Positions 3,854 through 39,445 of a DNA stretch of 39,445 nucleotides are shown in pieces. The stretch is from the NCBI GenBank assembly GCA_900320855.1, contig ONTV01000031.1:1-39445 (forward strand). Direction: 5' to 3'. The notes under the pieces were generated by a model, which saw only the letters and a list, made by a program, of their open reading frames with translations, was not told where the DNA came from and did no database searches. A program made the position numbers and the translations under genes. The first letter of the stretch is position 1. Every line of letters starts with the position of its first letter. The DNA comes from an uncultured Lentisphaerota bacterium. Its GTDB lineage: Bacteria; Verrucomicrobiota; Kiritimatiellia; RFP12; UBA1067.

Positions 3854-3935
3854 TCGAATGGTCGAATGATCGAATGATCGAATGATCGAATGAGCGAGTG
3901 AGCGAATGGGCGAGTGAATGATCGAGTGATTGGAT
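3854..3935 (+). repeat. Degenerate octamer array, GAATGATC family (copy 1)
   Basis: About ten 8-bp units (GAATGGTC, GAATGATC x3, GAATGAGC, GAGTGAGC, GAATGGGC and further decayed copies) fill the whole gap between the acyl-CoA ligase stop and the next gene. The ATG of the next gene (3934) is part of the last unit. The left end, 3845-3877, is identical over 33 bp to 34457-34489. Confidence 0.9.
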
Positions 3936-12997: not shown

Positions 12998-13873
12998 ATG
13001 GCAGAAGACCGGCAGACCCTCAACCGTAACTTGGCGCAGATGCTCAAGGGCGGCGTGATCATGGACGTGACGACGCCCGAGCAGGCGAAGATCGCGCAGG
13101 ACGCGGGCGCGTGCGCCGTCATGGCGCTTGAGCGCATTCCCGCCGACATCCGCGCGGCCGGCGGCGTGAGCCGCATGAGCGATCCGGCGATGATTCGCGG
13201 CATCCAGGAGGCCGTCACGATTCCCGTCATGGCGAAGTGCCGCATCGGCCACGTCGCCGAGGCGCGCATTCTGGAGGCGATCGAGATCGACTACATCGAC
13301 GAGAGCGAAGTCCTCTCGCCGGCCGACGACCTCTACCACATCGACAAGGCGGCCTTCAAGGTGCCGTTCGTCTGCGGCGCGCGCGACCTCGGCGAGGCCC
13401 TCCGCCGCATTGGCGAGGGCGCGACGATGATCCGCACGAAGGGCGAGCCGGGCACGGGTGACGTCGTGCAGGCCGTCCGCCACATGCGCAAGATGCAGGC
13501 CGAGATCCGTCGGATCGCCGCGTTGCGCGAGGACGAGCTCAACGAGGCGGCGAAGGAGCTCGCCGCGCCGCTCGACCTCGTGCGCGAGGTGCATCGCCTC
13601 GGCAAGCTCCCCGTCGTCAACTTCGCGGCGGGCGGCGTCGCGACCCCGGCGGACGCCGCGCTCATGATGGAGCTGGGCGCCGAGGGCGTGTTCGTCGGCT
13701 CCGGCATCTTCAAGAGCGGCGACCCTGCGAAGCGCGCGGCGGCGATCGTCCAGGCCGTCACGAACTGGCAGGACGCCGCCTTGCTCGCGAAGCTGAGCGA
13801 GAACCTCGGCCCGGCGATGGTCGGCATCAACGCCGACGAGATCGAGACGATCATGGAAGAGCGGGGGAAGTGA
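12998..13873 (+). CDS. pdxS: Pyridoxal 5'-phosphate synthase subunit PdxS
   Basis: The 291-residue TIM-barrel synthase joins ribose 5-phosphate, glyceraldehyde 3-phosphate and ammonia into PLP in the DXP-independent route. The two catalytic lysines are in context: Lys80 (MAKCRIGH) and Lys148 ([10 protein letters not shown]). Conserved stretches [31 protein letters not shown] and [10 protein letters not shown] are present. It is full length with a strong Shine-Dalgarno (GGAAGGAG). The pdxT glutaminase starts one base after its stop, as expected for subunits of one complex. The palindrome upstream suggests regulated expression. Confidence 0.97.
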
Positions 13874-13874
13874 G

Positions 13875-14450
13875 ATGCGCGTCGGCGTTCTCGCGGTGCA
13901 GGGCGCGTTCGTCGAACACGAACGCGCCTTTGCGGACGTCGGGGCGGAGACGTTCGAGATTCGCCAGACGCGCGACCTCGCGCGTCCGTTCGATGCCCTC
14001 GTCCTCCCCGGCGGCGAATCGACGACGCAGGGCAAGCTCCTCAAGGACCTCGGGCTCTTCGCGCCGCTGAAGGCGCGGATCGAGGCGGGGCTGCCCGTCT
14101 TTGCGACGTGCGCGGGCCTTATCCTGCTCGCGGAACGGCTCATGGGCGACCCGACCGTCTGGTTCGGCGTCCTGCCCGTGACCGTGCAGCGCAATGCCTA
14201 CGGCCGCCAGCTCGGCAGCTTCGCGGCGATGCGCGCGGGCGGCGCGGGCGGTGGCGAAGGGTTGGACGACCGTGTGCCGATGGCCTTCATCCGCGCGCCG
14301 GCGATCGTCGACGTCGCCCCGGACGTCGAGATCCTGTCCCTGCACGGCGGGCGCCCGACGGCCGTCCGCTGGCGGAACGTCTGGGCCTTCGCCGGACACC
14401 CCGAGCTGACGGACGACCGTCAGGTCTTCGAGGCCTTCTGCCGGCGGTAG
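13875..14450 (+). CDS. pdxT: Pyridoxal 5'-phosphate synthase glutaminase subunit PdxT
   Basis: The 191-residue class I glutamine amidotransferase feeds ammonia to PdxS. The N-terminus MRVGVLAVQGAFVEH is typical, the nucleophile is Cys79 (FATCAGLILLA), PGGEST lies near residue 48, and the His-Glu pair lies in the late GHPELTDD motif. Length is normal. It starts with the TGAGATG junction after pdxS, indicating coupling. The rarA promoter begins directly after its stop. Confidence 0.96.
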   Translation: MRVGVLAVQGAFVEHERAFADVGAETFEIRQTRDLARPFDALVLPGGESTTQGKLLKDLGLFAPLKARIEAGLPVFATCAGLILLAERLMGDPTVWFGVLPVTVQRNAYGRQLGSFAAMRAGGAGGGEGLDDRVPMAFIRAPAIVDVAPDVEILSLHGGRPTAVRWRNVWAFAGHPELTDDRQVFEAFCRR

Positions 14451-14459
14451 CGGCAGTTG

Positions 14460-14468
14460 TGGTATAAT
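14460..14468 (+). promoter_or_regulatory. Extended -10 promoter of rarA, leaderless type
   Basis: TGGTATAAT ends 8 nt before ATG 14477. It begins ten bases after the pdxT stop; no Shine-Dalgarno fits. Confidence 0.72.
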
Positions 14469-14476
14469 ACGGTCCC

Positions 14477-15859
14477 ATGCGGCAGATGTCGTTGATTGAA
14501 GGGGCCTTGGGGGGCGACGCGCCGGCGGCGCCCGAGCCGCTGGCCGCGCGGATGCGTCCGCGCGACCTCTCGGAGTTCGTCGGGCAAGAGCATCTCGTCG
14601 GCGAGGGGAAGATCCTCCGCCAGATGATCGAGCGCGACCAGGTGCCGTCCATGATTCTCTGGGGCCCGCCCGGCGTCGGCAAGACGACGCTCGCGAACGT
14701 GGTCGCGAACCTCACGAAGGCCGAGTTCGTCAACTACTCGGCCGTGACGAGCGGGATCAAGGAAATCAAGGAGATCATGGCGCGCGCCGAATCGGGCCGC
14801 CGCGTCGGCCTCCGCACCGTCCTCTTCGTGGATGAGATCCACCGCTTCAACAAGGCGCAGCAGGACGCGTTCCTGCCTTTCGTCGAGCAGGGCTCGATCG
14901 TCCTCATCGGCGCGACGACGGAGAATCCGAGCTTCGAGGTCAACTCGGCGCTCCTCTCGCGCTGCAAGGTGTTCGTCCTCAAGGGCCTGTCCGAGGCCGA
15001 CCTCGTCAAGCTCCTGCGCCGCGCGCTGACGAGCGCACGCGGCTTCGGCAAGCTGGACGTGCAGGCGAGCGACGGGACGCTCGCGAAGATCGCGGTCTAC
15101 GCGAACGGCGACGCGCGCAACGCGCTCGGCACGCTTGAGACGGCCGTCGCGAACGCGGCGTTCGACGCGGCGGGGCGGCCGACGATCACGGAGGACGTCC
15201 TTGCGCAGGTCGTGAGCCGCAAGGCGCTCCTCTACGACAAGAACGGCGAAGAGCATTACAACGTCATCTCGGCCCTGCACAAGTCGATGCGCAACTCCGA
15301 TCCGGACGCGGCCGTCTACTGGCTCGCGCGGATGCTGGAGGGCGGGGAAGACCCGCTCTACATCGCGCGGCGGTGCGTCCGTTTCGCGAGCGAGGACGTG
15401 GGGCTCGCCGACCCGAACGCGCTTCTCCTGGCGAACGCCGTCTGGGACGCCTGCCACAATCTCGGCGTGCCCGAGTGCGGCGTGCACCTGACGCAGATCG
15501 TCGTCTACCTTGCCCTGGCGCCGAAGTCGAACGCGATGGAGGAGGCGTACAACCGCGCGGCGGCGGACGCGCAGAAGATGATGGCCGAGCCGGTGCCGCT
15601 CCAGATCCGCAACGCGCCGACGCGACTCATGAAGAGCCTCGACTACGGCAAGGGCTATGTCTACGCGCACGACACGGACGAGAAGATTGCGCGGATGAGC
15701 TGCCTGCCGGACGCGCTCGCGGGCCGCCGCTACTACACGCCGGCGGGGCTTGGGCGCGAGGCGAACCTCAAGGCGCGCCTTGCCGCCGTGCGCGACTGGC
15801 GTGAAGGGCGCACGAACGTGCCGCCGTTCGCCTCGCCTGCCTATGCCGCCCGCGCCTGA
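14477..15859 (+). CDS. rarA: Replication-associated recombination protein A (RarA/MgsA AAA+ ATPase)
   Basis: The 460-residue clamp-loader-like AAA+ ATPase acts at stalled forks. The N-terminus has RMRPRDLSEFVGQEHLVGEG. Walker A is GPPGVGKTTLAN (about residues 59-70) and Walker B is LFVDEIHRFNKAQQD; sensor 1 is IGATTENPSFEVN with the arginine finger near LLSRCKVF. The C-terminal tetramerisation region has HYNVISALHKSMRNSDPDAA and RRCVRFASEDVGLADP. It is full length compared with E. coli RarA (447). It is monocistronic by promoter and downstream hairpin. Confidence 0.95.
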   Translation: MRQMSLIEGALGGDAPAAPEPLAARMRPRDLSEFVGQEHLVGEGKILRQMIERDQVPSMILWGPPGVGKTTLANVVANLTKAEFVNYSAVTSGIKEIKEIMARAESGRRVGLRTVLFVDEIHRFNKAQQDAFLPFVEQGSIVLIGATTENPSFEVNSALLSRCKVFVLKGLSEADLVKLLRRALTSARGFGKLDVQASDGTLAKIAVYANGDARNALGTLETAVANAAFDAAGRPTITEDVLAQVVSRKALLYDKNGEEHYNVISALHKSMRNSDPDAAVYWLARMLEGGEDPLYIARRCVRFASEDVGLADPNALLLANAVWDACHNLGVPECGVHLTQIVVYLALAPKSNAMEEAYNRAAADAQKMMAEPVPLQIRNAPTRLMKSLDYGKGYVYAHDTDEKIARMSCLPDALAGRRYYTPAGLGREANLKARLAAVRDWREGRTNVPPFASPAYAARA

Positions 15860-19863: not shown

Positions 19864-21297
19864 ATGGTCATTCATCCATCGGACAACGTGGAGGTCCGCG
19901 ACGACGGACACAAGTACGCGCGGCGCGACATCGCCGAAGGCGAGAACATCATCAAGTACGGCATGCCCATCGGGCACGCGACGCGGGCGATCGCGAAGGG
20001 CGAGCACGTCCACGTCGACAACGTGAAGACGAACCTCGGCGAAGTCCTCGAATACCGCTACGAGCCGTCGTTCGCCGACGTCCCGCGCGTTCCCGCGCCG
20101 ACGATCCGCGCCTACCGCCGTCCCGACGGGCGCATTGGCATCCGCAACGACCTCTGGGTCATTCCGCTCGTCGGCTGCGTGAACCGCCTTGCGGAACGGC
20201 TGGCCGCGCGCGTCGGTGGCCTCGCCCTCACGCATCCCTACGGTTGTTCGCAGATGGGCGAAGACCACGAGCGGACGGCGAACATGCTCGTGCAGTTCTG
20301 CCACCACCCGAACGCGGGCGGCGTCCTCGTCGTCGCGCTCGGTTGCGAGAACAACACGCTGGAGAGCTTTGCCGCACGTCTCGGCTACGACCCGAAGACC
20401 TTCGACGCCGCCTCCGGAACCTTCCAAACGCCCCAACCCCCAAACTCCCAAACTCCCAAACGCCCAAACATCCAGCCCCCTTTCAACATCCGTTTCCTCC
20501 GTGCGCAGGATCCGGGCGACGAGTTCGAGAAGGGACTGGCGCTGCTGGCGGAGCTGGACGCGGCGCGCCCGAAGACGCGCGAGGCGGTGTCGGCGTCCGA
20601 GCTCGTCGTGGGGCTCAAGTGCGGCGGGTCGGACGGCTTTTCGGGCCTCACGGCGAATCCGCTCGTCGGTCGGTTCTCCGACTGGCTCGCCGCGCGCGGC
20701 GGCTCGACGATCCTCACCGAGGTCCCCGAGATGTTCGGCGCGGAGACGCTGCTCATGAAGCGGTGCCGCACGCGCGACGTCTTCGACAAGTGCGTGAAGA
20801 TGATCAACGACTTCAAGGGCTACTACGCCGCGCACAACCAGGTCTGCTACGAGAACCCCTCGCCCGGCAACAAGGCGGGCGGCATCACGACGCTGGAGGA
20901 CAAGTCGCTCGGCTGCGTGCAGAAGGGCGGCTCGGCCCCGGTCGAGGACGTGCTGGGCTACGGCGAGACCGTGAAGCGCCACGGGCTTTCGCTCCTGACG
21001 GGCCCCGGCAACGACCTCGTCGCCTCCACGGTGCTGGCGGCGGCGGGCTGCCACCTCATCCTCTTCACGACGGGGCGCGGCACGCCGTTCGGCTGCGTCG
21101 TCCCGACGCTCAAGGTCGCGACGAACGACGCGCTCGCGGCGAAGAAGCCGAACTGGATCGACTGGAACGCGATGTCGAATCCCGACGTCGAGGCGTTCGC
21201 GCAGAAGGTGCTGGCGGTCGCGAGCGGCGAGAAGGCGAAGAACGAGGTCTGCGGCGCGCAGGGCATCGCGATCTTCAAGGACGGCGTGACGCTCTGA
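19864..21297 (+). CDS. uxaA: Altronate dehydratase UxaA, with in-frame repeat insertion
   Basis: The 477-residue enzyme dehydrates D-altronate to 2-keto-3-deoxygluconate in galacturonate catabolism. It has an N-terminal SAF domain (about residues 1-80, with IKYGMPIGHATRAI and GEHVHVDNV) and a UxaA catalytic domain with RPDGRIGIRNDLWVIPLVGCVN, HPYGCSQMGEDHERT and LKCGGSDGFSG. The later signatures NPSPGNKAGGITTLEDKS and GCHLILFTTGRGTPFG are also present. Residues about 188-203, rich in Pro, Gln, Thr and Asn, are encoded by CAAACTCC repeats and absent from typical UxaA; they lie in the linker before the FLRAQDPGDEFEKG segment. GGAGGGG precedes the ATG. uxaB follows 65 bp later. Confidence 0.93.
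   Translation: MVIHPSDNVEVRDDGHKYARRDIAEGENIIKYGMPIGHATRAIAKGEHVHVDNVKTNLGEVLEYRYEPSFADVPRVPAPTIRAYRRPDGRIGIRNDLWVIPLVGCVNRLAERLAARVGGLALTHPYGCSQMGEDHERTANMLVQFCHHPNAGGVLVVALGCENNTLESFAARLGYDPKTFDAASGTFQTPQPPNSQTPKRPNIQPPFNIRFLRAQDPGDEFEKGLALLAELDAARPKTREAVSASELVVGLKCGGSDGFSGLTANPLVGRFSDWLAARGGSTILTEVPEMFGAETLLMKRCRTRDVFDKCVKMINDFKGYYAAHNQVCYENPSPGNKAGGITTLEDKSLGCVQKGGSAPVEDVLGYGETVKRHGLSLLTGPGNDLVASTVLAAAGCHLILFTTGRGTPFGCVVPTLKVATNDALAAKKPNWIDWNAMSNPDVEAFAQKVLAVASGEKAKNEVCGAQGIAIFKDGVTL
20425..20472 (-). repeat. In-frame octamer array (GTTTGGGN family, reverse orientation) inside uxaA
   Basis: Six octamers on the + strand: CAAACGCC, CCAACCCC, CAAACTCC, CAAACTCC, CAAACGCC, CAAACATC. The reverse complement (GGAGTTTG, GGCGTTTG) is the family seen at 36314-36353. 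The 48-bp length preserves the reading frame. Confidence 0.88.
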
Positions 21298-28496: not shown

Positions 28497-30479
28497 ATGG
28501 AAGTTCAATTGTTCTCTCTTCAGCGTGCCATTCGGCCTTTGTCGCTTGTCTTTTGTCGTCTGTCCTCTCCTGTCTCGCGTCTCGCGTCCTCTCGCTTCTC
28601 ACGTCTCTTGTCTCGCGCCCTCCCCCTCTCGGCCGCCCTCTCTCTCTTCGTCTTCGCGCTCGCCGCCCCCGCCAACGCCGCGCCGTCCGCGCCGCTGACG
28701 ACGCCGTGGGGCGAGAAGGTGACGGACGCGAACGCCTGGCGGGAGTACCCGCGCCCGCAGCTCGTGCGCGACGGCTGGACATGCCTGAACGGCGACTGGG
28801 ACTACGCCGTGACGAGCGTCACGAACACGCCGGGGCGCCCGGAGAAATGGGACGGGAAGATCCGCGTGCCGTTCGCGATCGAGTCCGCGCTCTCCGGCGT
28901 CGGGCGGCTCCTCGGGCCGGACGAGTTCCTCTGGTACACGCGCAAGGTCGACTGCCGGAAGCGGCCCGGCGAGCGCATCCTCCTGCACTTCGGCGCGGTC
29001 GACTTCCGCGCGCAGGTCTTCGTCGGCCACCGCGAGGTGACGGACGTGCCGCACGAGGGCGGGAACCTGCCGTTCACGCTCGACGTCACGGACTACGTCG
29101 CGGACGGTGAGAACGAGCTGACGGTCTGCGCGTGGGACCCGACGGAGGACTTCGTCAACTCGCGCGGCAAGCAGAGCTTCGAGCCGAAGGGGTGCTTCTA
29201 CACGCGCGTGTCGGGGATCTGGCAGACGGTGTGGATGGAGAACGTGCCCGAGACGCACGTGGCGGGCTACGCGGTGGCGACGGACATCGACAAGGGCACG
29301 GTCACGCTGCGCTTCGACGTGCGCAGCCCGCGCTTCGCGAAGCCGGAGGTGACGGTCGAGGTCGCCGGGGTGAAGGCGACGACGGCGAACGGCGAGGTGA
29401 CGGTCACGCTGCCGAGACCCGTCCGGCTCTGGAGCCCGGACTCGCCGGAGCTCTACCGCTTCACGGCGGCCTGCGGGGCGGACTCGGTGAGGGGCTACTT
29501 CGGGATGCGCAAAATCGAGAAACGCGCGGACGCGAAGGGCGTGCTGCGGTTCTACCTCAACGACGAGCCGACGTTCCTCCTCGGGACGCTCGACCAGGGG
29601 TGGTGGCCGGACGGGCTCCTGACGCCGCCGTCGGACGAGGCGATGGCGCACGACATCCGGACGCTGAAGGACTGCGGGTACAACATGATGCGCAAGCACA
29701 TCAAGGTCGAGCCGCTGCGGTACTACTATCTGTGCGACACGCTGGGGATCCTCGTCGTCCAGGACCTGCCGAGCGGCAACCACAGCTACCTGTCGCCGCT
29801 GGACGCGAAGACGACGGCGAGGTACTGGCTTCAGCGGCAGGAGCAGAAGGGGCTCATGGACCTTCTGCAGACGTCGCCGTCGGTCGTGATGTGGTGCCCG
29901 TACAACGAGGCCTGGACGCAGCCGGGCGAGTTCCAGACGCACGCGATGCTCGACTTCGTGCGGAACTACGACCCGACGCGGCTCGTGAACGGGCCGAGCG
30001 GCTGCTGGGACTGGGAAGGCGGGTGCATCCTGCCGACGGGGTGGGTCGCGTGGGACAAGCGCATCACGACGGCGCACAAGCCGGCGGGAGTCTGCGAGGC
30101 GGGGGATACGGTTGACGCGCACCTCTATCGCGGGCCGGCGATGTTCCCCGTCAACGACCGGCGCATCTCGTTCCTCGGCGAGTTCGGCGGCCTCGGGCAT
30201 TCCGTCGAGGGCCATCTCTGGAAGAAGACGGCGAAGAACTGGGGCTATGGCGGCAACAAGGACACCGCGACGCGCGAGGGGCTCGAGAAGACGTACGTCG
30301 CGCTCCTCGAAAAGGTCGCGGACCTGGCGGCGCAGGGCCTCGGCGGCGCGGTCTACACGCAGACGACGGACGTGGAGGTCGAGATCAACGGCCTCATGAC
30401 CTATGACCGAAAGGTGATGAAGTTCGATCCGAAGGCCCTTCGCGCCGTGCATCGGAAGGTCCTGGACGCCGTGCGCTGA
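28497..30479 (+). CDS. Glycoside hydrolase family 2 protein (beta-galactosidase/glucuronidase type)
   Basis: The 660-residue secreted hydrolase has an unusual long signal region (residues 1-60), a GH2 sugar-binding jellyroll (about 75-220, WTCLNGDWDYAV, IRVPFAIESALSGVG, FLWYTRKVD), an immunoglobulin-like domain, and a TIM barrel. The acid/base is Glu471 in WCPYNEAW and the nucleophile is Glu562 in FLGEFGG. Exported GH2 enzymes trim beta-linked galactose, mannose or glucuronate from glycans; the sugar is not predictable. The first 40 residues (RLSSPVSRLASSRFSRLLSR) come from a pyrimidine-rich heptamer array before the hydrophobic core LSAALSLFVFALAAPANA. The gene has its own promoter. Confidence 0.88.
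   Translation: MEVQLFSLQRAIRPLSLVFCRLSSPVSRLASSRFSRLLSRALPLSAALSLFVFALAAPANAAPSAPLTTPWGEKVTDANAWREYPRPQLVRDGWTCLNGDWDYAVTSVTNTPGRPEKWDGKIRVPFAIESALSGVGRLLGPDEFLWYTRKVDCRKRPGERILLHFGAVDFRAQVFVGHREVTDVPHEGGNLPFTLDVTDYVADGENELTVCAWDPTEDFVNSRGKQSFEPKGCFYTRVSGIWQTVWMENVPETHVAGYAVATDIDKGTVTLRFDVRSPRFAKPEVTVEVAGVKATTANGEVTVTLPRPVRLWSPDSPELYRFTAACGADSVRGYFGMRKIEKRADAKGVLRFYLNDEPTFLLGTLDQGWWPDGLLTPPSDEAMAHDIRTLKDCGYNMMRKHIKVEPLRYYYLCDTLGILVVQDLPSGNHSYLSPLDAKTTARYWLQRQEQKGLMDLLQTSPSVVMWCPYNEAWTQPGEFQTHAMLDFVRNYDPTRLVNGPSGCWDWEGGCILPTGWVAWDKRITTAHKPAGVCEAGDTVDAHLYRGPAMFPVNDRRISFLGEFGGLGHSVEGHLWKKTAKNWGYGGNKDTATREGLEKTYVALLEKVADLAAQGLGGAVYTQTTDVEVEINGLMTYDRKVMKFDPKALRAVHRKVLDAVR
28537..28616 (+). repeat. 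Pyrimidine heptamer array in the GH2 signal-peptide region
   Basis: CTTTGTC, GCTTGTC, TTTTGTC, GTCTGTC are contiguous heptamers (28537-28564), followed by CTCTCCT, GTCTCGC, GTCTCGC, a less regular part, GTCTCTT and GTCTCGC. The array adds a Ser/Arg-rich n-region to the signal peptide. Confidence 0.75.
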
Positions 30480-30503
30480 CGGACGTGCGCCGCCACGAGA
30501 CAC

Positions 30504-30533
30504 TTGCATTCGACGAGCAGATTGTAGTATAAT
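30504..30533 (+). promoter_or_regulatory. Promoter of the envelope cluster, near-leaderless
   Basis: TTGCAT (30504-30509), an 18-bp spacer, TATAAT (30528-30533). The start ATG 30543 is 9 nt after the box. The extension is TAG rather than TGn. It is the only clear promoter found before 38 kb, so it may drive the whole cluster. Confidence 0.72.
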
Positions 30534-30542
30534 CGCACCATC

Positions 30543-33500
30543 ATGAGACGAGAGGCTTTTTCAATTGTCGCGTTGGCGGCGCTTGCGGCGTCGCCGCTCT
30601 TCGCCGAGGAGGCGGCCGCGCCGGCGGCTGCGGCCCCGAATGAGAACCCCGAGCTTGAGGCCGAGATGAGCTATGTCGAGGCGCTCGTCAACTACGGGTA
30701 TCCCGACCTCGCGGGGCCGCTCATCGAGGCGACGAAGAAGCGGTGGCCCGAGTCCGAGGCGCGCTTCTTCGCGATCGAGATTCGCGGCATGCTCGCGCTC
30801 GGCCAGTTCGACGCGGCGGAGAAGAAGATCGCCTCGCTGCCCGACCGCAAGTCGACGAAGTACTGGGCGGCGCGCCTTGAGATGGCGAACAACTACTTCG
30901 GCCGTGGGCAGAAGCCCGAGTGCATGAAGATCTACGACGAGTTCTTCAAGGTCTTTGCGAAGCCGCCGGCCGAGATCCGCAAGTTCTACCTGGAGGCGTG
31001 CTACGCCTACGGCCAGCTGCTCGCGGGCGACAAGCAGTACGCGAAGGCCGTGCAGCGCTACGAGTCGCTTCTCGCGCAGCTGGAGCCGGGCAGCGACGCC
31101 TGGTGCAACCTCGGCTGCGAGACGGTCGATCTCTATCTGCGCCTGGCGGACCAGCAGACGGATCCGAAGCAGAAGAAGGCGCGCGACGCGAGCCTGAAGG
31201 CGGCCGAGAAGATCGTCGACAAGCTCCTCTGGCAGCTTGAGAAGCCCGTCTACTTCGGGCGCGCGGTCTCGATGAAAGCCCATATCGAGCAGATGAAGGG
31301 CGACATCGAGAAGGCCTCGGCCATCATCGAGGAGTACAAGCCGCAGCTGCAGGAGATCCATGAGCAGATCGTCCAGTTCGACCCGGAGGGCAAGCTGGGC
31401 CTGCTGAAGCAGTCGCCGCTCCCGGAGTGCCTGTTCCTCCAGGCGAAGATGCTGTGGGGCGAGGCGCAGGCCGAGTACAAGAAGCCGAAGCGCGATGACG
31501 AGAAGGTGAAGTCCCTCATGTTCGGCCCGCGCGGCAAGAACGGCAAGCGCCAGATCTCGAAGGGCGCGTTCGCGATGGCGCAGACGGTCTTCCTCGAATA
31601 CGAGGCGTCCTCGTGGGCGCCGCAGGCGGGCGACCTCGCGCAGGCCGTGAGCACGTTCGCGAAGGAGAAGTACAAGGCGAACATCAAGTGCAAGATTACG
31701 CCCGAGCAGATCGCGAAGGCGCGCGCGCGCCAGTTTGCGGACGCGAACGAGAAGTTCCTCGCGCAGGACTACGAGGCCGCGATCGAGGGCTATCTGCAGG
31801 CGCTTGCGAAGTATCCGGAGATCAAGGAGTCCGTGATGGCCGTCGAGAACGTCGCCTCGGCCTACCTGGATCTCATCCTCCAGACGAAGGACGCGAAGAA
31901 GAAAGACGAATACCGGCTGGACGCCGATGCGGTCGAGGGCTATCTCGCCGAGCGTTTCGCGGGGTCGACGGACCGGCTTCTCATGACGGCCGGCGGCGAC
32001 GCGACGGTCCGTCTCGCGGCGAAGGAGTCGCAGTACAAGAATCCGGCGCGCGCCGACCGCCTCTACACGGCGTTCTTCACGAACTACCGGCGTCATGCGA
32101 ACGCGGGCACGCTGGCGGCCGCGCGGGCGGCGGAGTTCCAGAAGGCCGGGCGGTATGACGACGCGATCAAGTACTGGTCGCTGATCGGCGAGTACTACAC
32201 GAACACGACGCACTACGCGACGTCGCTCGCCCAGCTCGCGGCCTGCTGCGGCAAGGTCGGCGACGTGAAGGGCGAGATCGCGAACATGACCAAGTACCTC
32301 GCGGTCGAGACGGTGAAGATCCGCCGCCTCCAGGCCCAGTTCAAGCTGGCGCAGACCTACCAGAAGGATGGCCTCGCGATGCTGGCCAAGGCCGCCGAGG
32401 AGACGGACGCCGCCAAGGTCGAGGCGCTGGAGAAGGAGGGAACTGCGCAGATTGTCCGCGCGATCCAGAACTTCTCGGGCTTCAAGAAGGAGGCGGACGC
32501 GGCGCTCGCCGACCCGACGACGACGAAGGAGGACGCCGCGAGCTACCGCAAGCTGCGCGAGGGCGCGATGTTCATGGTCGGCGTCTGCTGGCGGCGCATG
32601 AACCGTCCGGAGCAGAACCTCGAGGCCTACCGCAAGCGCGCGGCGGCCGGGTACGAGGCCTACGTGAAGGAATATCCCGAAGGGCAGTACGCGAAGCCCT
32701 GCTACGTAGACCTCGGGACGATCTACACGGCGCTCGGCGACATGGCGAAGTCGAAGGCGGCGCTGGACCGCCTGACGGAGAAGTTCCCCGATTCCGACGA
32801 GGCGAAGAACGCGAAGCCGCGCCTGGCGAAGAACCTCATCGAAATGGGCATGAAGCGCGAGGGCGCCGAGATCTACGCCGAGATGCTGCGGACGGACGGC
32901 GCGTACACGGCGAACCAGTTCGTCCAGGCGGGCGAGGCCCTGATTGAGGGCAAAAGCTGGGATCTTGCGAGCCAGGCGTTCGAGAAGGCGATTCGGCTCG
33001 CGGGCACGAATTCGGCGACGACCGTCGCGAAGGCGCGGCTCGGCCTCGCGAAGAGCGCGTGGAAGCAGGGCTCGCTTGCCGAGGCGCGCGACCAGCTCGA
33101 CAAGTTCCTCGAAGACCCGAAGATGTCGCGCATGGCGATTGCCGCCGACGCGAACTTCATGCTCGTCGAGGTCGCGTCCGACCAGGGCCGCACGGAGAAG
33201 GACGCGACGATGCGTGGCAAGTGCTTTGGCGCGGCGATTGGCGCGCTCAAGAAGGTGCGCCAGTACTGGGCGAAGAAGCCGCAGTGGGAGCAGGACCAGC
33301 TCGACCTCCTCTCCGGCGACGTGCTCGTCGATCGCATGAAGGCCGAGGAGGCGATGGGCCTCAAGGAAGAGGCGAAGGAGACGTGCGGGCGCGCGGCCGC
33401 GACCTTCCAGGTCTTCCTCCAGGCGCATGGCGTGACGGACGAGCATCCGCTCGACAAGATGGAGCCGGGCGAGGTCGCGAACCTCGAGCGCGCCTATGCG

Positions 33501-33659
33501 ACGCTCGTGCCGCTCTTTGCGAAGATGGGCGCCACGCAGGCCGACCTTGTCGTGAAGTTCGGGCAGGAGTATCTCGACCTCTTCCCGAACGGCAAGGCGC
33601 GGACGCTTGTCCAGAACTGCATGAACCAGGCCAAGGCGGATCTGCCGGCCCAGAAGTGA
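30543..33659 (+). CDS. Large secreted TPR-repeat protein of the ExbBD-linked cluster
   Basis: The 1038-residue protein has a signal peptide (likely cleavage after SPLFA, residue 21), then almost entirely helical repeats of TPR type. Examples are LEARFFAIEIRGMLALGQFDAAEKKIASLP-like hairpins near 80, FADANEKFLAQDYEAAIEGYLQALAKYPE near 400, and CYVDLGTIYTALGDMAKSKAALDRLTEKFPDSDEAKNAKPRLA near 720. No enzymatic motif is visible. It is predicted to be a periplasmic scaffold. Similar long TPR proteins often precede exbB/exbD in PVC bacteria, which suggests it is the periplasmic partner of the motor; that is inference. The next gene follows 21 bp later. Confidence 0.85.
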   Translation: MRREAFSIVALAALAASPLFAEEAAAPAAAAPNENPELEAEMSYVEALVNYGYPDLAGPLIEATKKRWPESEARFFAIEIRGMLALGQFDAAEKKIASLPDRKSTKYWAARLEMANNYFGRGQKPECMKIYDEFFKVFAKPPAEIRKFYLEACYAYGQLLAGDKQYAKAVQRYESLLAQLEPGSDAWCNLGCETVDLYLRLADQQTDPKQKKARDASLKAAEKIVDKLLWQLEKPVYFGRAVSMKAHIEQMKGDIEKASAIIEEYKPQLQEIHEQIVQFDPEGKLGLLKQSPLPECLFLQAKMLWGEAQAEYKKPKRDDEKVKSLMFGPRGKNGKRQISKGAFAMAQTVFLEYEASSWAPQAGDLAQAVSTFAKEKYKANIKCKITPEQIAKARARQFADANEKFLAQDYEAAIEGYLQALAKYPEIKESVMAVENVASAYLDLILQTKDAKKKDEYRLDADAVEGYLAERFAGSTDRLLMTAGGDATVRLAAKESQYKNPARADRLYTAFFTNYRRHANAGTLAAARAAEFQKAGRYDDAIKYWSLIGEYYTNTTHYATSLAQLAACCGKVGDVKGEIANMTKYLAVETVKIRRLQAQFKLAQTYQKDGLAMLAKAAEETDAAKVEALEKEGTAQIVRAIQNFSGFKKEADAALADPTTTKEDAASYRKLREGAMFMVGVCWRRMNRPEQNLEAYRKRAAAGYEAYVKEYPEGQYAKPCYVDLGTIYTALGDMAKSKAALDRLTEKFPDSDEAKNAKPRLAKNLIEMGMKREGAEIYAEMLRTDGAYTANQFVQAGEALIEGKSWDLASQAFEKAIRLAGTNSATTVAKARLGLAKSAWKQGSLAEARDQLDKFLEDPKMSRMAIAADANFMLVEVASDQGRTEKDATMRGKCFGAAIGALKKVRQYWAKKPQWEQDQLDLLSGDVLVDRMKAEEAMGLKEEAKETCGRAAATFQVFLQAHGVTDEHPLDKMEPGEVANLERAYATLVPLFAKMGATQADLVVKFGQEYLDLFPNGKARTLVQNCMNQAKADLPAQK

Positions 33660-33680
33660 TGATTTGAGAAAGGCAACGGA

Positions 33681-34451
33681 ATGAACAAACTGACGATCAT
33701 GAGTCTGGCGGCCCTTGCGGCGGCGGAGGTCTTCGCCGTGCAGGGTACGCTCAACACCGAAACCGAGTCCCTGACGGGCGACATCAAGTGGCGCGCGCGC
33801 GACAAGCAGTACGTCGTCTCCGTGAAGAAGGGGCAGACGATGGTTGACATGGAGCGCAAGAAAGACGACGTCGTCTCGCTCGACATCCCGAAGCCGCAGG
33901 GCTTCGACAAGGCCGTGCAAATGGTCGAAAGCGGGTCGGGCGCGGCGGCGATCGCGATCCTGCAGAAGATCGTCGACGAGTACGTGATGCTTCAGTGGGA
34001 CAAGCCGGCCGGGCGCTATCTCGCGATGGCGCAGCTCGCGGCGGGGCATGCCCAGAAGGCCAATGACATCTGCACGAAGATCATCGCGTCCGACAAGGAG
34101 GCGGCCTATTCGGGCGATCTCGCGGCGGCCTACTGGCAGTCGCTCCTGAAGCTCGGCAAGAACGACCAGCTGGAGAGCCTCCTGAAGAAGGCCGCGACGT
34201 CCGGCGACCGCACGGCGTCCGCCGCCGCGCTCGTCATGCGCGGCGACATCATCGTCGCGAAGTCGAACGATGCGCCCGACGCGCTCAAGGACGCGTTGCG
34301 CGACGGTTACCTGCGCGTTGTCCTCATGTACCAGGACGAGGCGTGCAAGCGCGAGCGCGGCGAGGCGATGCTCAAGGCCGCGCAGTGCTTCGACAAGCTC
34401 GGCCAGTCCGCGCGCGCCGAGGCTCTCCGCGCCCAGGCGAAGGCGATGTGA
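33681..34451 (+). CDS. Secreted helical-repeat protein of unknown function
   Basis: The 256-residue protein has a signal peptide (MNKLTIMSLAALAAAEVFA, cleavage near residue 19) and a short beta-rich start (VQGTLNTETESLTGDIKWRARDKQYVVSVKKGQ). The remainder is TPR-like helices (YLAMAQLAAGHAQKANDICTKIIASDKE, AEALRAQAKAM at the end). I do not recognise a named family. It lies between the large TPR protein and exbB and is probably cotranscribed; a periplasmic role with them is inferred. The purine-rich GAGAAAGGCAACGGA precedes the ATG. Confidence 0.75.
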   Translation: MNKLTIMSLAALAAAEVFAVQGTLNTETESLTGDIKWRARDKQYVVSVKKGQTMVDMERKKDDVVSLDIPKPQGFDKAVQMVESGSGAAAIAILQKIVDEYVMLQWDKPAGRYLAMAQLAAGHAQKANDICTKIIASDKEAAYSGDLAAAYWQSLLKLGKNDQLESLLKKAATSGDRTASAAALVMRGDIIVAKSNDAPDALKDALRDGYLRVVLMYQDEACKRERGEAMLKAAQCFDKLGQSARAEALRAQAKAM

Positions 34452-34456
34452 GGTGA

Positions 34457-34502
34457 GGGAAATAATCGAATGGTCGAATGATCGAATGAACGGTCGAATG
34501 GC
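34457..34502 (+). repeat. Degenerate octamer array, GAATGATC family (copy 2)
   Basis: 34457-34489 is identical over 33 bp to 3845-3877, starting GGGAAATAATCGAATGG; units then decay. It lies 5 bp after the preceding stop and 34 bp before exbB. Confidence 0.9.
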
Positions 34503-34536
34503 CGAAACTCTTTAAACCCAAAAACAAGATAAAACA

Positions 34537-35361
34537 ATGAACAAGATCAAGAAGTCTCTGCTGGCGATGTCGATTCTCGTTGGAACGTGCGTCGCGCCAA
34601 TGGCCGCGCTCCAGTCGTATGGCCAGGAAATCACCGATGCCGCCGGCAACGCGGTTGACACCAACGCGGCGAAGTCCCAGAGCTCGGGCGGCGGATTCTA
34701 CGAGATCGTCTTCGGTTCGGGCATCGTCGGCATGATCCTGTGGTTTGCGCTCTTCGGCGACGGCGCGCTCGCGATCTACTTCGCCCTTGACTCCGCGATC
34801 CTCATCAAGCCGGACAAACTCATGCCGAAGAAGCTCATGGACGGTGTGCAGGGCGCGATGATGGAGGGCGACGTCGTCAAGGCGATGGAGGTCTGCGACC
34901 AGAACCCGTCCGCGATGGCGTCGATCGTCAAGGCGGCCTTCCAGCACATCGAGGAGGGCTTCGAGGCGATTCAGGAGGCCGTGACGGCGGCGTCCGACCT
35001 CGAGCAGGAGAAGATCCAGCAGCGGCTGAACTGGATTTCGGTCTGCGGCAACCTCGGCCCGTCCCTCGGCCTTCTCGGTACGGTGCAAGGCATGATCCTG
35101 ACGTTCCAGGCGCTCGCCTCCGGCGGCGCCGGCGATGCGGCCGCGCTCGCGAACTCGATCGGCCAGGCTCTCTGGACGACGGCCGGCGGCCTGATCGTGT
35201 CGATCCCCTCGATCACCATCTTCTACTCGCTCCGCAACAAGGCCAACCGCCTCATCCTGAAGATGACCGCGATGACGATGGAGATCCTGAACGGCCTCCG
35301 CAATGTCGCCGTCGATCCGGGCGCCGAGGGCGACGCTCCGGCGGAAGCGGCCCAGGCGTAA
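34537..35361 (+). CDS. exbB: MotA/TolQ/ExbB-family proton-channel protein
   Basis: The 274-residue inner-membrane protein of the ExbB/TolQ family forms, with ExbD/TolR, a proton-driven motor. It has an N-terminal signal-like extension (residues 1-30), TM1 around 55-90 (GIVGMILWFALFGDGALAIYFAL), a cytosolic helical domain (VVKAMEVCDQNPSAMASIVKAAF), and the conserved TM2-TM3 pair NLGPSLGLLGTVQGMILTFQAL and ALWTTAGGLIVSIPSITIFYSL. Whether it serves TonB, Tol or another partner is unclear. It has no good Shine-Dalgarno, only an A-rich leader. The first exbD follows 18 bp later. Confidence 0.92.
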   Translation: MNKIKKSLLAMSILVGTCVAPMAALQSYGQEITDAAGNAVDTNAAKSQSSGGGFYEIVFGSGIVGMILWFALFGDGALAIYFALDSAILIKPDKLMPKKLMDGVQGAMMEGDVVKAMEVCDQNPSAMASIVKAAFQHIEEGFEAIQEAVTAASDLEQEKIQQRLNWISVCGNLGPSLGLLGTVQGMILTFQALASGGAGDAAALANSIGQALWTTAGGLIVSIPSITIFYSLRNKANRLILKMTAMTMEILNGLRNVAVDPGAEGDAPAEAAQA

Positions 35362-35379
35362 GCGAAAGGCCCTCGTTCC

Positions 35380-35880
35380 ATGGCCAGGAAAGCACAGGAG
35401 AATCCGGCCCTCGACATGACGCCGATGATCGACGTCGTCTTCGAGCTGATCATCTTCTTCGTCGTCACGCTGACCGAAGCGCAGCGCAAGGACGAGACGA
35501 TCGAGCTCGAAGACGGTCGGCACGGCATCGTGCTCGTTCCAGAGGAGTTGCCGCCGACGCATCTGCAGATTGACATCGCGAGCCGCGACAAGCGCGGCAA
35601 GCGTCTGCCGCGCGGTCGCATCTCGATGGGCGACCGCGAGATTACGCCGGACGAGATCGGCCGCCGCGTCAAGGAGCGGATGCGCAAGGTCGGGGAGTTT
35701 CCCGTCCTCATCCGTGCCGACTACGACGTGCGCCACGAGGTCGTCGCGCGCGTCATGGACGCCTGCACGGCGAACGGCATCTGGAAGATCTCGTTCATGG
35801 CGACGGCAGAGGACAAGCGCTCGAAGCCGGGGCATCCCGCCCGCAAGCATCTGGACGCGCTCAAGAGAAGGGGGAGGTAA
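35380..35880 (+). CDS. exbD: ExbD/TolR-family protein 1
   Basis: The 166-residue bitopic protein has a short cytosolic N-terminus and the TM helix MIDVVFELIIFFVVT (about residues 16-30), with the proton-path Asp18 in TPMIDVVF. The periplasmic domain is about 130 residues, with VLIRADYDVRHEVVARVMDACTANGIWKISFMA matching the ExbD fold. The basic C-terminal tail (RSKPGHPARKHLDALKRRGR) is longer than usual. It sits 3 bp before a second exbD whose first 30 residues are the same except for residue 5. Confidence 0.92.
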   Translation: MARKAQENPALDMTPMIDVVFELIIFFVVTLTEAQRKDETIELEDGRHGIVLVPEELPPTHLQIDIASRDKRGKRLPRGRISMGDREITPDEIGRRVKERMRKVGEFPVLIRADYDVRHEVVARVMDACTANGIWKISFMATAEDKRSKPGHPARKHLDALKRRGR

Positions 35881-35883
35881 GCC

Positions 35884-36294
35884 ATGGCGCGCAAGCCACA
35901 GGAGAATCCCGCGCTCGACATGACGCCGATGATTGACGTCGTCTTCGAGCTGATCATCTTCTTCGTCGTCACGATCAAGCAGGAGGACACGCTTTCGAAG
36001 CTGAACGCGAACCGTCCCGCGCCCGCGTCCGGGTCATCGTCTTCAAACGAGTCCGACACGACCGTGACAATCGAGATCGGGCGGGGACACGACGCGAACG
36101 GCGTCCTCGTCTACAACAAGCGCGAGGTGCGGCGGTCGGAGCTCGACCAGAACCTGCGCGAGGTCGCCCGCACGTCGACGAAGACCCCCATCATCATCAA
36201 GTGCACGATGGATTCGCCGCACAAGGCGCTTGTCGATGCGCTTGACATCTGCTACAAGAACAACCTGTTCAGCGTCAGCATCTTCTCGATGTGA
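35884..36294 (+). CDS. exbD: ExbD/TolR-family protein 2
   Basis: The 136-residue bitopic protein has an N-terminal 30 residues (TM helix and Asp18) differing from the first ExbD only at residue 5. The periplasmic domain is different: a Ser-rich linker (RPAPASGSSSSNESD), then TVTIEIGRGHDANGVLVYNKREV and PIIIKCTMDSPHKALVDALDICYKNNLFSVSIFSM. Paired ExbDs occur in several gliding or TonB-type motors where they may form heterodimers. It starts 3 bp after the first exbD, indicating coupling; the repeat array at 36299 follows it. Confidence 0.92.
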   Translation: MARKPQENPALDMTPMIDVVFELIIFFVVTIKQEDTLSKLNANRPAPASGSSSSNESDTTVTIEIGRGHDANGVLVYNKREVRRSELDQNLREVARTSTKTPIIIKCTMDSPHKALVDALDICYKNNLFSVSIFSM

Positions 36295-36298
36295 GACG

Positions 36299-36372
36299 GG
36301 TGGGCGTAGGGAAGTTTGGATGTCTGGGCGTTTGGATGTTTGGAAGTCCTGAAAGTTTTGGAGGTTTAGGGC
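36299..36372 (+). repeat. Degenerate octamer array, GTTTGGAT family
   Basis: GTTTGGAT (36314), GTCTGGGC, GTTTGGAT, GTTTGGAA, GTCCTGAA in register, with decayed units on both sides, fill the whole gap between the second exbD and the next gene. GGAGGTTTAGGGC next to the ATG supplies GGAGG. The unit is the reverse of the array in uxaA. Confidence 0.88.
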
Positions 36373-38112
36373 ATGGCTGAAGAGTTTGTCGAAGACGAGT
36401 TGCAGGAGGCCCCGCTGAGCGCGGAGGAACTCTTCGAGCAGCACAAGGCCGAGATTGAGGCGGCATTCGAGGAGAAGGGCTTTTTCCGCCGCATGGCGGA
36501 TATGTTGACGGGTCTCTCGAAGCCGCATTCATCTGCCGAGTTCAAGATCGCGAAGACGGAGCTCCAGCGGCTCATCGCCCCGATCGCGGCGATTACGCTG
36601 CCGGTCCTGGGCGTCGCCGTCCTCATTGTCGTGACGGCCGTCCAGGGACAGATGGACAAGAAGATCGAGGTCGAGGTCGCTCGTGCCCAGGAGGAGGAGA
36701 CCGAGCTCGAGGAGGAGCAGGAACAGGAGGAGATCGTCGAGCAGACGCCGCCCGAGGAGATGGTCGACGTCACGATCGACACGCCGGACGTCACCCCCGT
36801 GGCGGATGTCGTCACGCCGAGCGCGACGCCGACGGCCGAGCCGGTTTCCGTGAAGCCGGCCGCGCAGGATTCCGTCGCCCTCATCAAGTCGCCCGTCACG
36901 ATGAAGTCGATGACGGGTTCGCGGACGCCCGGCTCCATCGGCGCCATGACGCGGGGCGGCAATATGTACGGCGATGCGACGACGGAGGGTGCCGTCCTCA
37001 AGGCCCTGCGGTGGCTCAAGAAGACGCAGCTGCCGAACGGGACCTGGGGCAATGGCGGCAACCCGATCTCGAACGCGGGGCTGGCGATTCTCGCGTTCCT
37101 GGCCCATGGCGAGACGCCGGCCTCGAAGGAGTTCGGACCGACTGTCCAGAAGGCGATGCAGTTCCTGATCGATTCGCTGACGAAGAGGAAGGACAAGACC
37201 GGGCAGGAGGTCGTTTCCTTCAAGGAGACGGACGGCAACGAGTACGCGACGCTGATCGCGACCTACGCCCTTTGCGAAGCCTATGGCATGACGCGCAACC
37301 CGAACACGAAGATCGTGGCCATGCAGACCCTGCAGCGCATCGTCGACAACCAGTCGCCGACGGGCGGCTGGGACTACGGCATGAACCGCAAGTCGACGCG
37401 TGACGACATGTCATACGCGGGCTGGGCGCTTCAGGCGCTGAAGGCCGGCAAGATGGCGGGCATGCACCCAAAGGGGCTGGACGCCTGCATCAAGAAGGCA
37501 ATCAAGTGCCTGAAGACGCGCAACTTCAAGAACGGCGGCTTCAACTACACGGCGGGCGGCGGCCCGACGGGCCTGACGGCGACGGGCTGCCTTGCGATGC
37601 AGCTCCTCGGTTACATGAACGAGAACGAGGTGAAGGCCGCGCTCGACACGATGCGCGCGTGGAAGCCGTCGTTCGAGGGCACGAAGGGGAAGAAGCTCTC
37701 GGAGGCCCTGCCGGCGGCCAATCCCCAGTACTACTGCTACTACGCCGCGCAGTGCAAGTACCAGGCCGGCATGTGCCAGGGCGCAACGCCCGCGAACGTG
37801 AAGGCCTGGCAGGACTGGAACCTCGCGATGAAGGCCCTCTATCCACGCACGATGATCACGCTCCCCGAGAAGATTCCGGGGCTGGACGGCAAGCCGCGCG
37901 CAATCGGGTACTGGAAGTTCAAGGACCAGACGTGCGGCGGCGAGAAGGCGACGACGATGGCGACGTGCCTGGCGGCGCTGCAGATGATGGTTTACTACCG
38001 CTACCTGCCGACCACGCAGACAAAGGCCGCGAAGGCCATCACGTCGGGTGACGAGGACGAAGGCTCGAAGAAGAAGCAGAGCGACGAACTCGACATCGAG
38101 GTAGATATTTGA
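36373..38112 (+). CDS. TonB-like stalk fused to a squalene-cyclase-type alpha/alpha-toroid domain
   Basis: The 579-residue protein has a cytosolic acidic N-terminus (residues 1-66) and one TM helix (about 68-90, IAPIAAITLPVLGVAVLIVVTAV). A charged Glu-rich segment (97-130) is followed by a TonB-like low-complexity linker rich in Thr, Pro and Val (130-200). From about residue 203 a prenyltransferase/squalene-oxidase repeat domain begins (GAVLKALRWLKKTQLPNGTWGNGG, NQSPTGGWDYGM, RNFKNGGFNYTAGGGPTGLTATGCLAMQLLGY, QTCGGEKATTMATCLAALQMMVYY). Topology and position after exbB-exbD-exbD match tonB, but the TonB C-terminal domain is replaced by the toroid. The DxDD motif of cyclases is not seen, so catalysis is doubtful; ligand or glycan binding is more likely. 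It ends in an acidic tail. Confidence 0.85.
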   Translation: MAEEFVEDELQEAPLSAEELFEQHKAEIEAAFEEKGFFRRMADMLTGLSKPHSSAEFKIAKTELQRLIAPIAAITLPVLGVAVLIVVTAVQGQMDKKIEVEVARAQEEETELEEEQEQEEIVEQTPPEEMVDVTIDTPDVTPVADVVTPSATPTAEPVSVKPAAQDSVALIKSPVTMKSMTGSRTPGSIGAMTRGGNMYGDATTEGAVLKALRWLKKTQLPNGTWGNGGNPISNAGLAILAFLAHGETPASKEFGPTVQKAMQFLIDSLTKRKDKTGQEVVSFKETDGNEYATLIATYALCEAYGMTRNPNTKIVAMQTLQRIVDNQSPTGGWDYGMNRKSTRDDMSYAGWALQALKAGKMAGMHPKGLDACIKKAIKCLKTRNFKNGGFNYTAGGGPTGLTATGCLAMQLLGYMNENEVKAALDTMRAWKPSFEGTKGKKLSEALPAANPQYYCYYAAQCKYQAGMCQGATPANVKAWQDWNLAMKALYPRTMITLPEKIPGLDGKPRAIGYWKFKDQTCGGEKATTMATCLAALQMMVYYRYLPTTQTKAAKAITSGDEDEGSKKKQSDELDIEVDI

Positions 38113-38206
38113 GTGGGGAAGTGGGAGAGTGGAACAGTGGGAAAGTGGAATGGTGGGAATGTGGGGAAGTGGGAGAGTGGGAATGTGAGAAAGTGGGAGA
38201 GTGGGA
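38111..38206 (+). repeat. Array of twelve octamers, RAGTGGGA family
   Basis: Twelve contiguous 8-bp units stay in perfect register (GAGTGGGG, AAGTGGGA, GAGTGGAA, CAGTGGGA, AAGTGGAA and so on), starting within the TGA of the toroid gene. A further partial stretch lies at 38222-38237. The unit is the same as in the dehydrogenase (4754) and tsaE (5114) insertions. Confidence 0.93.
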
Positions 38207-38295
38207 GGAAGAGGAGCGAGGCGGGAAAGTGGAAAGGTTTAAAGACAGCGGAAGGTTGGCGGAATGTGACGGACGGGTGTGAGTTGTCCGATGAA

Positions 38296-38387
38296 CATCT
38301 GAGATCTGGAATTTGAGATCCGGAATGAACAGTTGAGGCTTGCCACGAGCATTTGAAATCTGAGATTTGAGATTTGAAATCTTGAAA
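38296..38387 (+). repeat. A/T-rich short-period repeats (GAGATTT/GAAATCT family)
   Basis: Degenerate copies of GAGATCT, TTTGAGATC and GAAATCT lie at 38296-38328 and 38351-38387, interrupted by unrelated sequence. They can pair with one another. The probable TTG start of the permease gene lies in the last unit. Confidence 0.75.
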
Positions 38388-39445
38388 TTTCCTCTTTTCC
38401 TAGCTCTTAAATACCTTAAGCCGAAGCGATCCGTCGCTTCGGTCATCACGCTTGTCTCCATCTTGGGCGTGATGCTGGGCGTCGCGGTCGTCATCATCGT
38501 CCGCAGCGTCATGACGGGCTTCGGCGACATCTGGGAGGAGAAGATCCTCGACTTCAAGCCGCACGTCTCGCTCGTGCCGCAAGTTGGCAACGTCGTTCGC
38601 GGCGAAGAGGCCCTCGCGGCGAAGCTCCGCCAGATCCCGGGCGTGACGTGCGTGACGCCCGAAATCGACACGCGCGTTCTCCTTGCGCACAAGGGGCGTG
38701 TCCTCGCGCCGGTCATCCTCGGCGTGGACGGCGACGACTTCACGCGCGCCTACCGCATCGGCGCGCCGCGTGCCGGCACGTTTGACCTTTCGGGCGACTC
38801 GATCGTCCTCGGCGTCTCGGCGGCGCGGTCGCTCGGCGTCTGGGTGGGCGACGAGGTGACGGTCTACTCGCCGAAGACGCTCGTCGCGACGGACGAGGTG
38901 TTCCTGCCGGTCAAGTGGAGGGTCGTCGGCATCTTCTCCTGCGGACAGCACGAGTACGATTCCGGCTACGTCGTCGCATCGCTCCCGAATGTCCGCGACT
39001 TGATGGGAATGGAGCAGGGCGTCTTCGCGATCCACGTCAAGACGGACTGCCCGACGGACGCGGCGAAGTTCGAGCGGATCGTCTCGGCGGCCGTCGCCGT
39101 CGGCGACGGGAACGGCGCGCGGCTGCGCGCGATCTCCTGGCGGGAGGCCGACCGCGAGATCTTCAACGCGCTGGCCGTCGAGAAGAACATGACGGCGCTG
39201 CTCCTCTCGCTCATCTCGCTCGTCGCCGTCTTCTGCGTCATGAACACGCTGCTTGTGCTGACCGTGCAGAAGACGCCGGAGATCGGGCTCCTGAAGGCGC
39301 TGGGCTTCCGCAAGCGCGAGATCATGAAGGTCTTCCTCGTCCACGGCATGATCCAGTGCGGCGTCGGCATCGTCCTCGGATTGCTGGCCTCGTGGGCCGT
39401 TCTGTCGAACCTCCAGAACATCGTCGAGGGACTGGCGCGAATGGG
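38382..39445 (+). CDS. LolC/LolE-family ABC permease (lipoprotein release), partial at window end
   Basis: The open frame runs off the window; 354 residues are visible. N-terminal motif MKFPLFLALKYLKPKRS (TTG start), TM1 SVITLVSILGVMLGVAVVIIVRSVMTGF, a periplasmic MacB-like domain (VRGEEALAAKLRQIPGVTCVTPEIDTRVLL to about 265) and the FtsX-type TM2 region MTALLLSLISLVAVFCVMNTLLVLTVQKTPEIGLLKALGFRKREI, then TM3. This matches LolC/E, which extracts outer-membrane lipoproteins with LolD. The TTG at 38382, or alternatively TTG 38367, lies in a repeat array with no Shine-Dalgarno; an in-frame stop at 38361 limits the start. It may be cotranscribed with the upstream cluster. Confidence 0.88.
   Translation, partial: MKFPLFLALKYLKPKRSVASVITLVSILGVMLGVAVVIIVRSVMTGFGDIWEEKILDFKPHVSLVPQVGNVVRGEEALAAKLRQIPGVTCVTPEIDTRVLLAHKGRVLAPVILGVDGDDFTRAYRIGAPRAGTFDLSGDSIVLGVSAARSLGVWVGDEVTVYSPKTLVATDEVFLPVKWRVVGIFSCGQHEYDSGYVVASLPNVRDLMGMEQGVFAIHVKTDCPTDAAKFERIVSAAVAVGDGNGARLRAISWREADREIFNALAVEKNMTALLLSLISLVAVFCVMNTLLVLTVQKTPEIGLLKALGFRKREIMKVFLVHGMIQCGVGIVLGLLASWAVLSNLQNIVEGLARM

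Follow-up and report, generated by a model that had tools for sequence, protein, structure and literature searches.

The analysed window is a stretch of 39,445 nt from an uncultured Lentisphaerota bacterium (contig ONTV01000031.1, assembly GCA_900320855.1, positions 1-39,445, forward strand). Its region 30543-38112 (+) encodes, in order, a tetratricopeptide-repeat (TPR) protein, a small helical-repeat protein, ExbB, two ExbD proteins, and a bitopic protein in which a transmembrane (TM) helix and a linker lead to an alpha/alpha-toroid. As shown in Table 1, all six open reading frames were located, and the gaps between them are 21, 85, 18, 3 and 78 nt. The six same-strand genes had been proposed in a preliminary description of this DNA, and the Pfam and NCBIfam families agree with AlphaFold2 and Foldseek in supporting them. 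The promoter placed at 30504 in that description was not recovered, as a scan of 30300-38500 by sigma-70 consensus only found none.

Table 1. Positions of the toroid operon genes and of the features within them
Feature	Position	Strand	Basis
Large TPR protein of 1038 aa; predicted to be soluble and periplasmic, with a signal peptide recognised by eye	30543..33659	+	TPR families (Pfam/NCBIfam)
Small TPR-like solenoid protein, 256 aa, signal peptide, short N-terminal beta segment	33681..34451	+	AlphaFold2/Foldseek
ExbB/TolQ-type motor ring subunit, signal peptide and periplasmic N-terminal extension	34537..35361	+	MotA_ExbB 8e-26
ExbB codon 76 (Gly), in the alignment opposite Ser28 of E. coli TolQ	34762..34764	+	operon ExbB comparison and TolQ alignment
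ExbB codon 137 (His), cytoplasmic part, window's subtype only	34945..34947	+	operon ExbB comparison
ExbD/TolR-type stator subunit 1, 166 aa, TPMID Asp retained	35380..35880	+	ExbD 1.6e-21
ExbD/TolR-type stator subunit 2, 136 aa, Asp retained	35884..36294	+	ExbD 3.2e-21
Putative toroid-headed transducer, 579 aa: cytoplasmic segment, TM helix, linker, toroid, acidic/hydrophobic C-terminal tail	36373..38112	+	AlphaFold2, Foldseek, alignments
Cytoplasmic segment conserved in the window's subtype, GLxxPxxSxEYKxAxxELQRL	36478..36579	+	alignment
TM helix, Ala73/Pro77 at the Ser/His positions of the TonB/TolA motif	36577..36645	+	model helix 55-91, alignment columns
Juxtamembrane beta-type motif IEVEV, candidate D-box/motor box for ExbD	36664..36678	+	pattern, D-box precedent PMC10907165
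Glu-rich then Pro/Thr/Val-rich disordered linker	36679..36966	+	low pLDDT
Alpha/alpha-toroid related to the squalene-hopene cyclase C-terminal half	36976..38010	+	profile match, Foldseek
Conserved C-terminal tail ELDIEVDI, possible beta-strand docking tag	38086..38109	+	regular-expression pattern

The ExbB/ExbD motor that had been claimed for this operon is supported by family domains above the curated cut-offs, with PF01618 matching ExbB at 90.7 bits and PF02472 matching the two ExbDs at 77.1 and 76.1 bits, and by the residues of the proton path. Both ExbDs contain TPMIDVVF with the TM Asp, and Thr182 and Thr215 of ExbB are invariant in the alignment of the operon ExbBs, where they align with the GTV and ATA motifs of TolQ. 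The match of ExbB to TolQ reaches 5e-20. For the small solenoid protein, the AlphaFold2 model has a mean predicted local distance difference test (pLDDT) score of 74, and its Foldseek matches are TPR proteins.

The AlphaFold2 model of the toroid protein, for which an eight-row alignment was the input, places the TM helix within a helix of residues 55-91, followed by a disordered linker (91-198, pLDDT <50) and a helical toroid. The pLDDT of the toroid region is mostly 70-90, and the whole model is of moderate quality (mean 60.8, predicted template modelling score 0.59). In the Foldseek search with the toroid model, squalene-hopene cyclases occupy ranks 1-4 (E ~1e-5), and the next matches are glycoside hydrolase family 76 (GH76) mannanases, sugar epimerases and C3d, all of which are alpha/alpha-toroids. 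A profile search with the protein gave the squalene-hopene cyclase 2SQC at 3.6e-10, and the weak Pfam match of 36373-38112 to the squalene-cyclase C-domain (5e-4) is under the Pfam cut-off. This was the only match in the Pfam and NCBIfam scans, which found no TonB_C domain. Both the bitopic TonB-like layout ending in a toroid and the lack of a canonical TonB C-terminal domain, as described earlier, therefore stand. The region resembles the C-terminal half of squalene-hopene cyclase (PF13243; 2SQC) in being an alpha/alpha-toroid with QW-like repeats; unlike the cyclase, it is a single toroid on a TM-linker arm, lacks the acid motif DXDD, and does not reach the curated cut-offs.

Two short motifs lie on either side of the linker and toroid. 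A phi-x-phi-x-phi pattern follows the TM helix within 38 aa in 30/49 operon copies, a count made with no shuffled control. The D-box of TonB is recruited to ExbD (PMC10907165), and the pattern suggests that the strand motif after the TM helix may resemble it. An alternating acidic/hydrophobic tail was found at the C-terminus by regular expression, likewise without a shuffled control, in 58/84 toroid proteins; the tail of the window's protein is possibly a beta-strand docking tag.

The gene order is conserved throughout the phylum, as had been anticipated. The toroid protein is present in 150 of the 162 genomes of the window's order; across the phylum Verrucomicrobiota, a profile search finds it in 198 of 388 sampled genomes. 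The regions around the toroid matches in the relatives were annotated with profiles from the window's proteins, and the full order of TPR, small TPR, ExbB, ExbD, ExbD and toroid was found in 50 fetched loci, which represent 25 family-level and 38 genus-level groups. In all 50, the large TPR orthologue is the first gene and the small solenoid protein is the second, and the median intergenic gaps are 9 to 52 nt. This conservation of the six-gene order far exceeds chance.

The window's genome also contains other motors. On contig C144, ExbB and ExbD are accompanied by a TonB with a clear TonB_C domain, and on contig C79 they are accompanied by a TolA/TonB-like proline-rich protein without a Pfam family match. 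A separate tonB cotranscribed with the window's operon did not appear, as the canonical tonB is the one on C144 with its own exbB and exbD. The canonical TonB and TolA-like systems on other contigs indicate that the operon in the window is an additional motor and not the TonB system of the cell. Two more ExbB loci with TPR proteins occur in the same genome (L043:136-2331 and L046:7476-10150), and no transducer was found beside either of them.

TonB and TolA bind their motors via a Ser-x3-His motif in the TM helix; in the E. coli structure determined by cryo-electron microscopy, Ser16 and His20 of TonB contact Ser34 and Trp38 of ExbB, and His22 of TolA contacts Ser28 and Trp32 of TolQ (PMC12215075). 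The distribution of this motif divides the toroid proteins into two classes, where the classes of motif and extension are regular expressions drawn after inspection of the sequences. Among the proteins without the cytoplasmic extension, Ser-x3-His is found in 26 of 35 from Verrucomicrobiota, where 2.6 are expected from shuffling each TM segment. In Planctomycetota, it is found in 23/24 toroid proteins (1.5 expected). Within the operons, 16 copies lack the extension; 15 of these carry the motif, and the last has Asn for His. The conserved cytoplasmic segment that precedes the TM helix in the window's subtype is absent where Ser-x3-His is present, and none of the 56 toroid proteins of this subtype has the motif. 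The TonB-like TM helix of the preliminary description stands as a helix in the model, and most relatives without the extension carry the motor-binding motif, although the window's helix does not.

The motor changes together with the transducer. In the 49 operons compared, ExbB invariably has Ser at position 76 in the 16 that lack the extension, and Gly, Ala or Leu in the 33 that have it; at position 137, all of these 33 have His and the other 16 have Asn, Phe or Gln. The TolQ alignment pairs position 76 with Ser28 in a stretch free of gaps, and the ExbBs adjoining the canonical TonB and the TolA-like protein in the window's genome retain Ser at this position. In the ExbB tree, the extension subtype forms one side of a branch with an approximate likelihood-ratio support (SH-aLRT) of 97. 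The loss of His and the change in ExbB fall on this one branch, which indicates a single evolutionary event. In a first grouping, which put every sequence lacking His into a single clade, the tree required two changes (p-AU 0.099); the exception is the one protein with Asn for His, which was moved to the other group after the tree was seen. The co-change fits a direct coupling between ExbB and the transducer without proving it. At a separate locus (L168:7889-8554), a TonB_C protein has a TM helix without Ser-x3-His, and both of its adjoining ExbBs show Ala in the alignment where TolQ has Ser28; this is possibly an independent instance of the same co-change.

The toroid protein is probably the force transducer of a proton-driven ExbB/ExbD motor of the inner membrane, with the toroid head binding a partner, since a role in force transduction is the likeliest one for a motor combined with a transducer layout. 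The motor would be of the 5:2 type, in which an ExbB ring surrounds a pair of ExbD1 and ExbD2, probably a heterodimer. It would act on the bitopic protein, which has the TonB/TolA layout of a TM helix, a candidate ExbD-binding strand and an extended linker, and we infer a physical coupling and a transmission of force. Its periplasmic, squalene-cyclase-like head would serve for partner binding and not for catalysis, and the two TPR proteins would be periplasmic partners of the transducer. The window's lineage has lost the usual Ser-His grip on ExbB along with its Ser partner in ExbB, and the grip may have been replaced by a new segment on the cytoplasmic side that would dock on ExbB. As for the cargo, our best guess is that the system handles or takes up, with energy, some large substrate that crosses the envelope, for example a glycan.

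The operon shares with TonB-ExbBD and TolA-TolQR the ExbB/ExbD motor with its conserved Asp and Thr, the layout of TM helix, extended linker and globular head, a candidate D-box strand and, in the relatives of the window's protein, Ser-x3-His. It differs from them in having no TonB/TolA C-terminal domain, two different ExbDs and two TPR proteins, and in the window neither the Ser-His pair nor an equivalent of ExbB Ser34/TolQ Ser28 is found.

Several findings weigh against the assignment of the toroid protein as a transducer. Toroid genes also occur as orphans and in tandem without adjacent exbB and exbD. In Planctomycetota, where a toroid match was obtained in 136 of 149 genomes, exbB or exbD adjoins the toroid gene in 0/20 fetched regions (L172-L191). 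In three single-contig genomes of one genus (L118, L119, L120), toroid proteins that lack the canonical Ser-x3-His occur as orphans, and some of them are tandem copies. These orphan copies argue against a coupling of toroid and motor. The labels of the TPR and small proteins come from iterated profiles and may collect general TPR similarity. Taken alone, the TM1 stretch in the alignment with TolQ does not reach significance (-1 bit), and the co-change is a single co-occurrence among other lineage-specific differences, judged from aligned sequences, and not replicated coevolution.

The closest prior art is the family of force transducers with a vWA head, which were described in 2025 from TPR-tolQ-tolR-tolR operons of bacteria of the Planctomycetes-Verrucomicrobia-Chlamydiae (PVC) group (Williams-Jones et al. 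2025, PMC12204202). The 50 toroid loci have the same order of TPR, tolQ, tolR, tolR and transducer. The head differs, being in the window an alpha/alpha-toroid by Foldseek with no vWA fold, and many vWA members retain Ser-x3-His, which the window's TM helix has lost. That paper mentions neither a toroid nor squalene cyclase (PMC12204202), and no literature on the combination of toroid and ExbD was found in a search of the open-access literature, which is weak evidence of absence.

One complete genome (G236) has the toroid operon together with paralogous operons of TPR, small TPR, ExbB, ExbD and ExbD with other heads (L158:8696-9844, L159:7034-8146, and L160:5227-8109 and 13498-15843), all of which have Ser-x3-His. 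The profiles of the toroid operon also match the TPR and small proteins of these paralogues, to which general TPR similarity contributes. One of the heads has a weak Pfam match to VWA (0.0036), and another has a possible match to PA14 (E 0.062). PA14 domains often bind glycans. We tentatively suggest, as a view less secure than the transducer assignment itself, that PVC bacteria may use one conserved motor chassis of TPR, small TPR, ExbB and two ExbDs with interchangeable heads (toroid, vWA and possibly PA14-like), in which the Ser-His grip, long thought essential for coupling to the motor, would have been replaced by a new cytoplasmic docking segment in the window's lineage. The window's operon would then encode a motor whose force transduction has been rewired in nature.

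A more specific form of the transducer assignment is a glycan-uptake motor similar in function to mucin utilisation locus 1 (MUL1) of Akkermansia muciniphila, in which the TPR protein would scaffold periplasmic glycan-degrading enzymes and the motor would drive the import of large glycans. The possible PA14-like head of the paralogous operon is in line with this proposal. In a complete genome, ExbB, ExbD, ExbD, TPR and small TPR genes lie in this order at ~647 kb, a candidate for the MUL1 locus of A. muciniphila. It shares with the window the ExbB/ExbD pair and the large and small TPR proteins; however, it has no toroid transducer, its gene order is different, and the TPR similarity is modest (71 bits). 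MUL1 and MUL2 mediate mucin transport and processing (PMC13174399), MUL loci are reported to mediate mucin transport (PMC12418764), and Amuc_0546 is listed among the transporters as 'biopolymer' (PMC11480725). On these points, glycan uptake of the MUL1 kind is possible, though on the unlikely side.

Alternatively, the toroid may be an inner-membrane-anchored enzyme acting on terpenes or glycans, so that ExbB/ExbD would serve the TPR proteins and the toroid protein would be no transducer. The squalene cyclases, GH76 mannanases and sugar epimerases among the fold neighbours and the existence of orphan copies are consistent with an enzyme. However, DXDD was found by pattern in just 6 of 93 toroid proteins and is absent from the window's protein, on which ground a terpene cyclase was rejected, and Ser-x3-His, which is strongly over-represented in the TM helix, is not known to have an enzymatic role. 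An enzyme is therefore unlikely.

A role in envelope maintenance or in lipoprotein or lipid handling had been hinted at from the gene after the toroid gene, a LolC/E family match at 38367-39443 (1e-61, below the cut-off). In 11 loci, all confined to the window's family, such a gene comes next after the toroid gene, whereas a MutL-like gene (~600 aa, recognised by its conserved N-terminus) takes this position in ten loci of other families. Since the LolC/E neighbour is confined to one family, it says little about function; a lipoprotein role read from it was rejected as lineage-specific, and a role of this kind is quite improbable. The conserved downstream gene of the other families was set aside as MutL-like. 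A power source for motility on surfaces or for adhesion, the role put forward for the related transducers with a vWA head that share the operon plan, is more doubtful still, as the gliding role of those transducers is itself a suggestion (PMC12204202) and no motility genes were seen near the operon, where no search was aimed at them.

If the coupling is real, the operon represents an abundant, unstudied energised envelope system in Verrucomicrobiota. Toroid transducers with the same motif would also be common in Planctomycetota, and both groups are noted for the uptake of large polymers. The family further offers a natural experiment on the contacts needed by a 5:2 motor, as one half of it keeps the contact between Ser-His and the ExbB Ser and the other half lacks it, so that the necessity of this contact and its replacement are directly testable.

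The plasmid search gave no match. Immediately upstream of the operon and on the same strand, 28497-30479 encodes a glycoside hydrolase family 2 protein. Several stretches of the window, mostly intergenic spacers, are filled with degenerate tandem repeats of 8-nt period (3849-3929, 4752-4782, 20424-20469, 34461-34506, 36301-36348 and 38112-38206), and three of these repeat-filled spacers lie within or just after the toroid operon.

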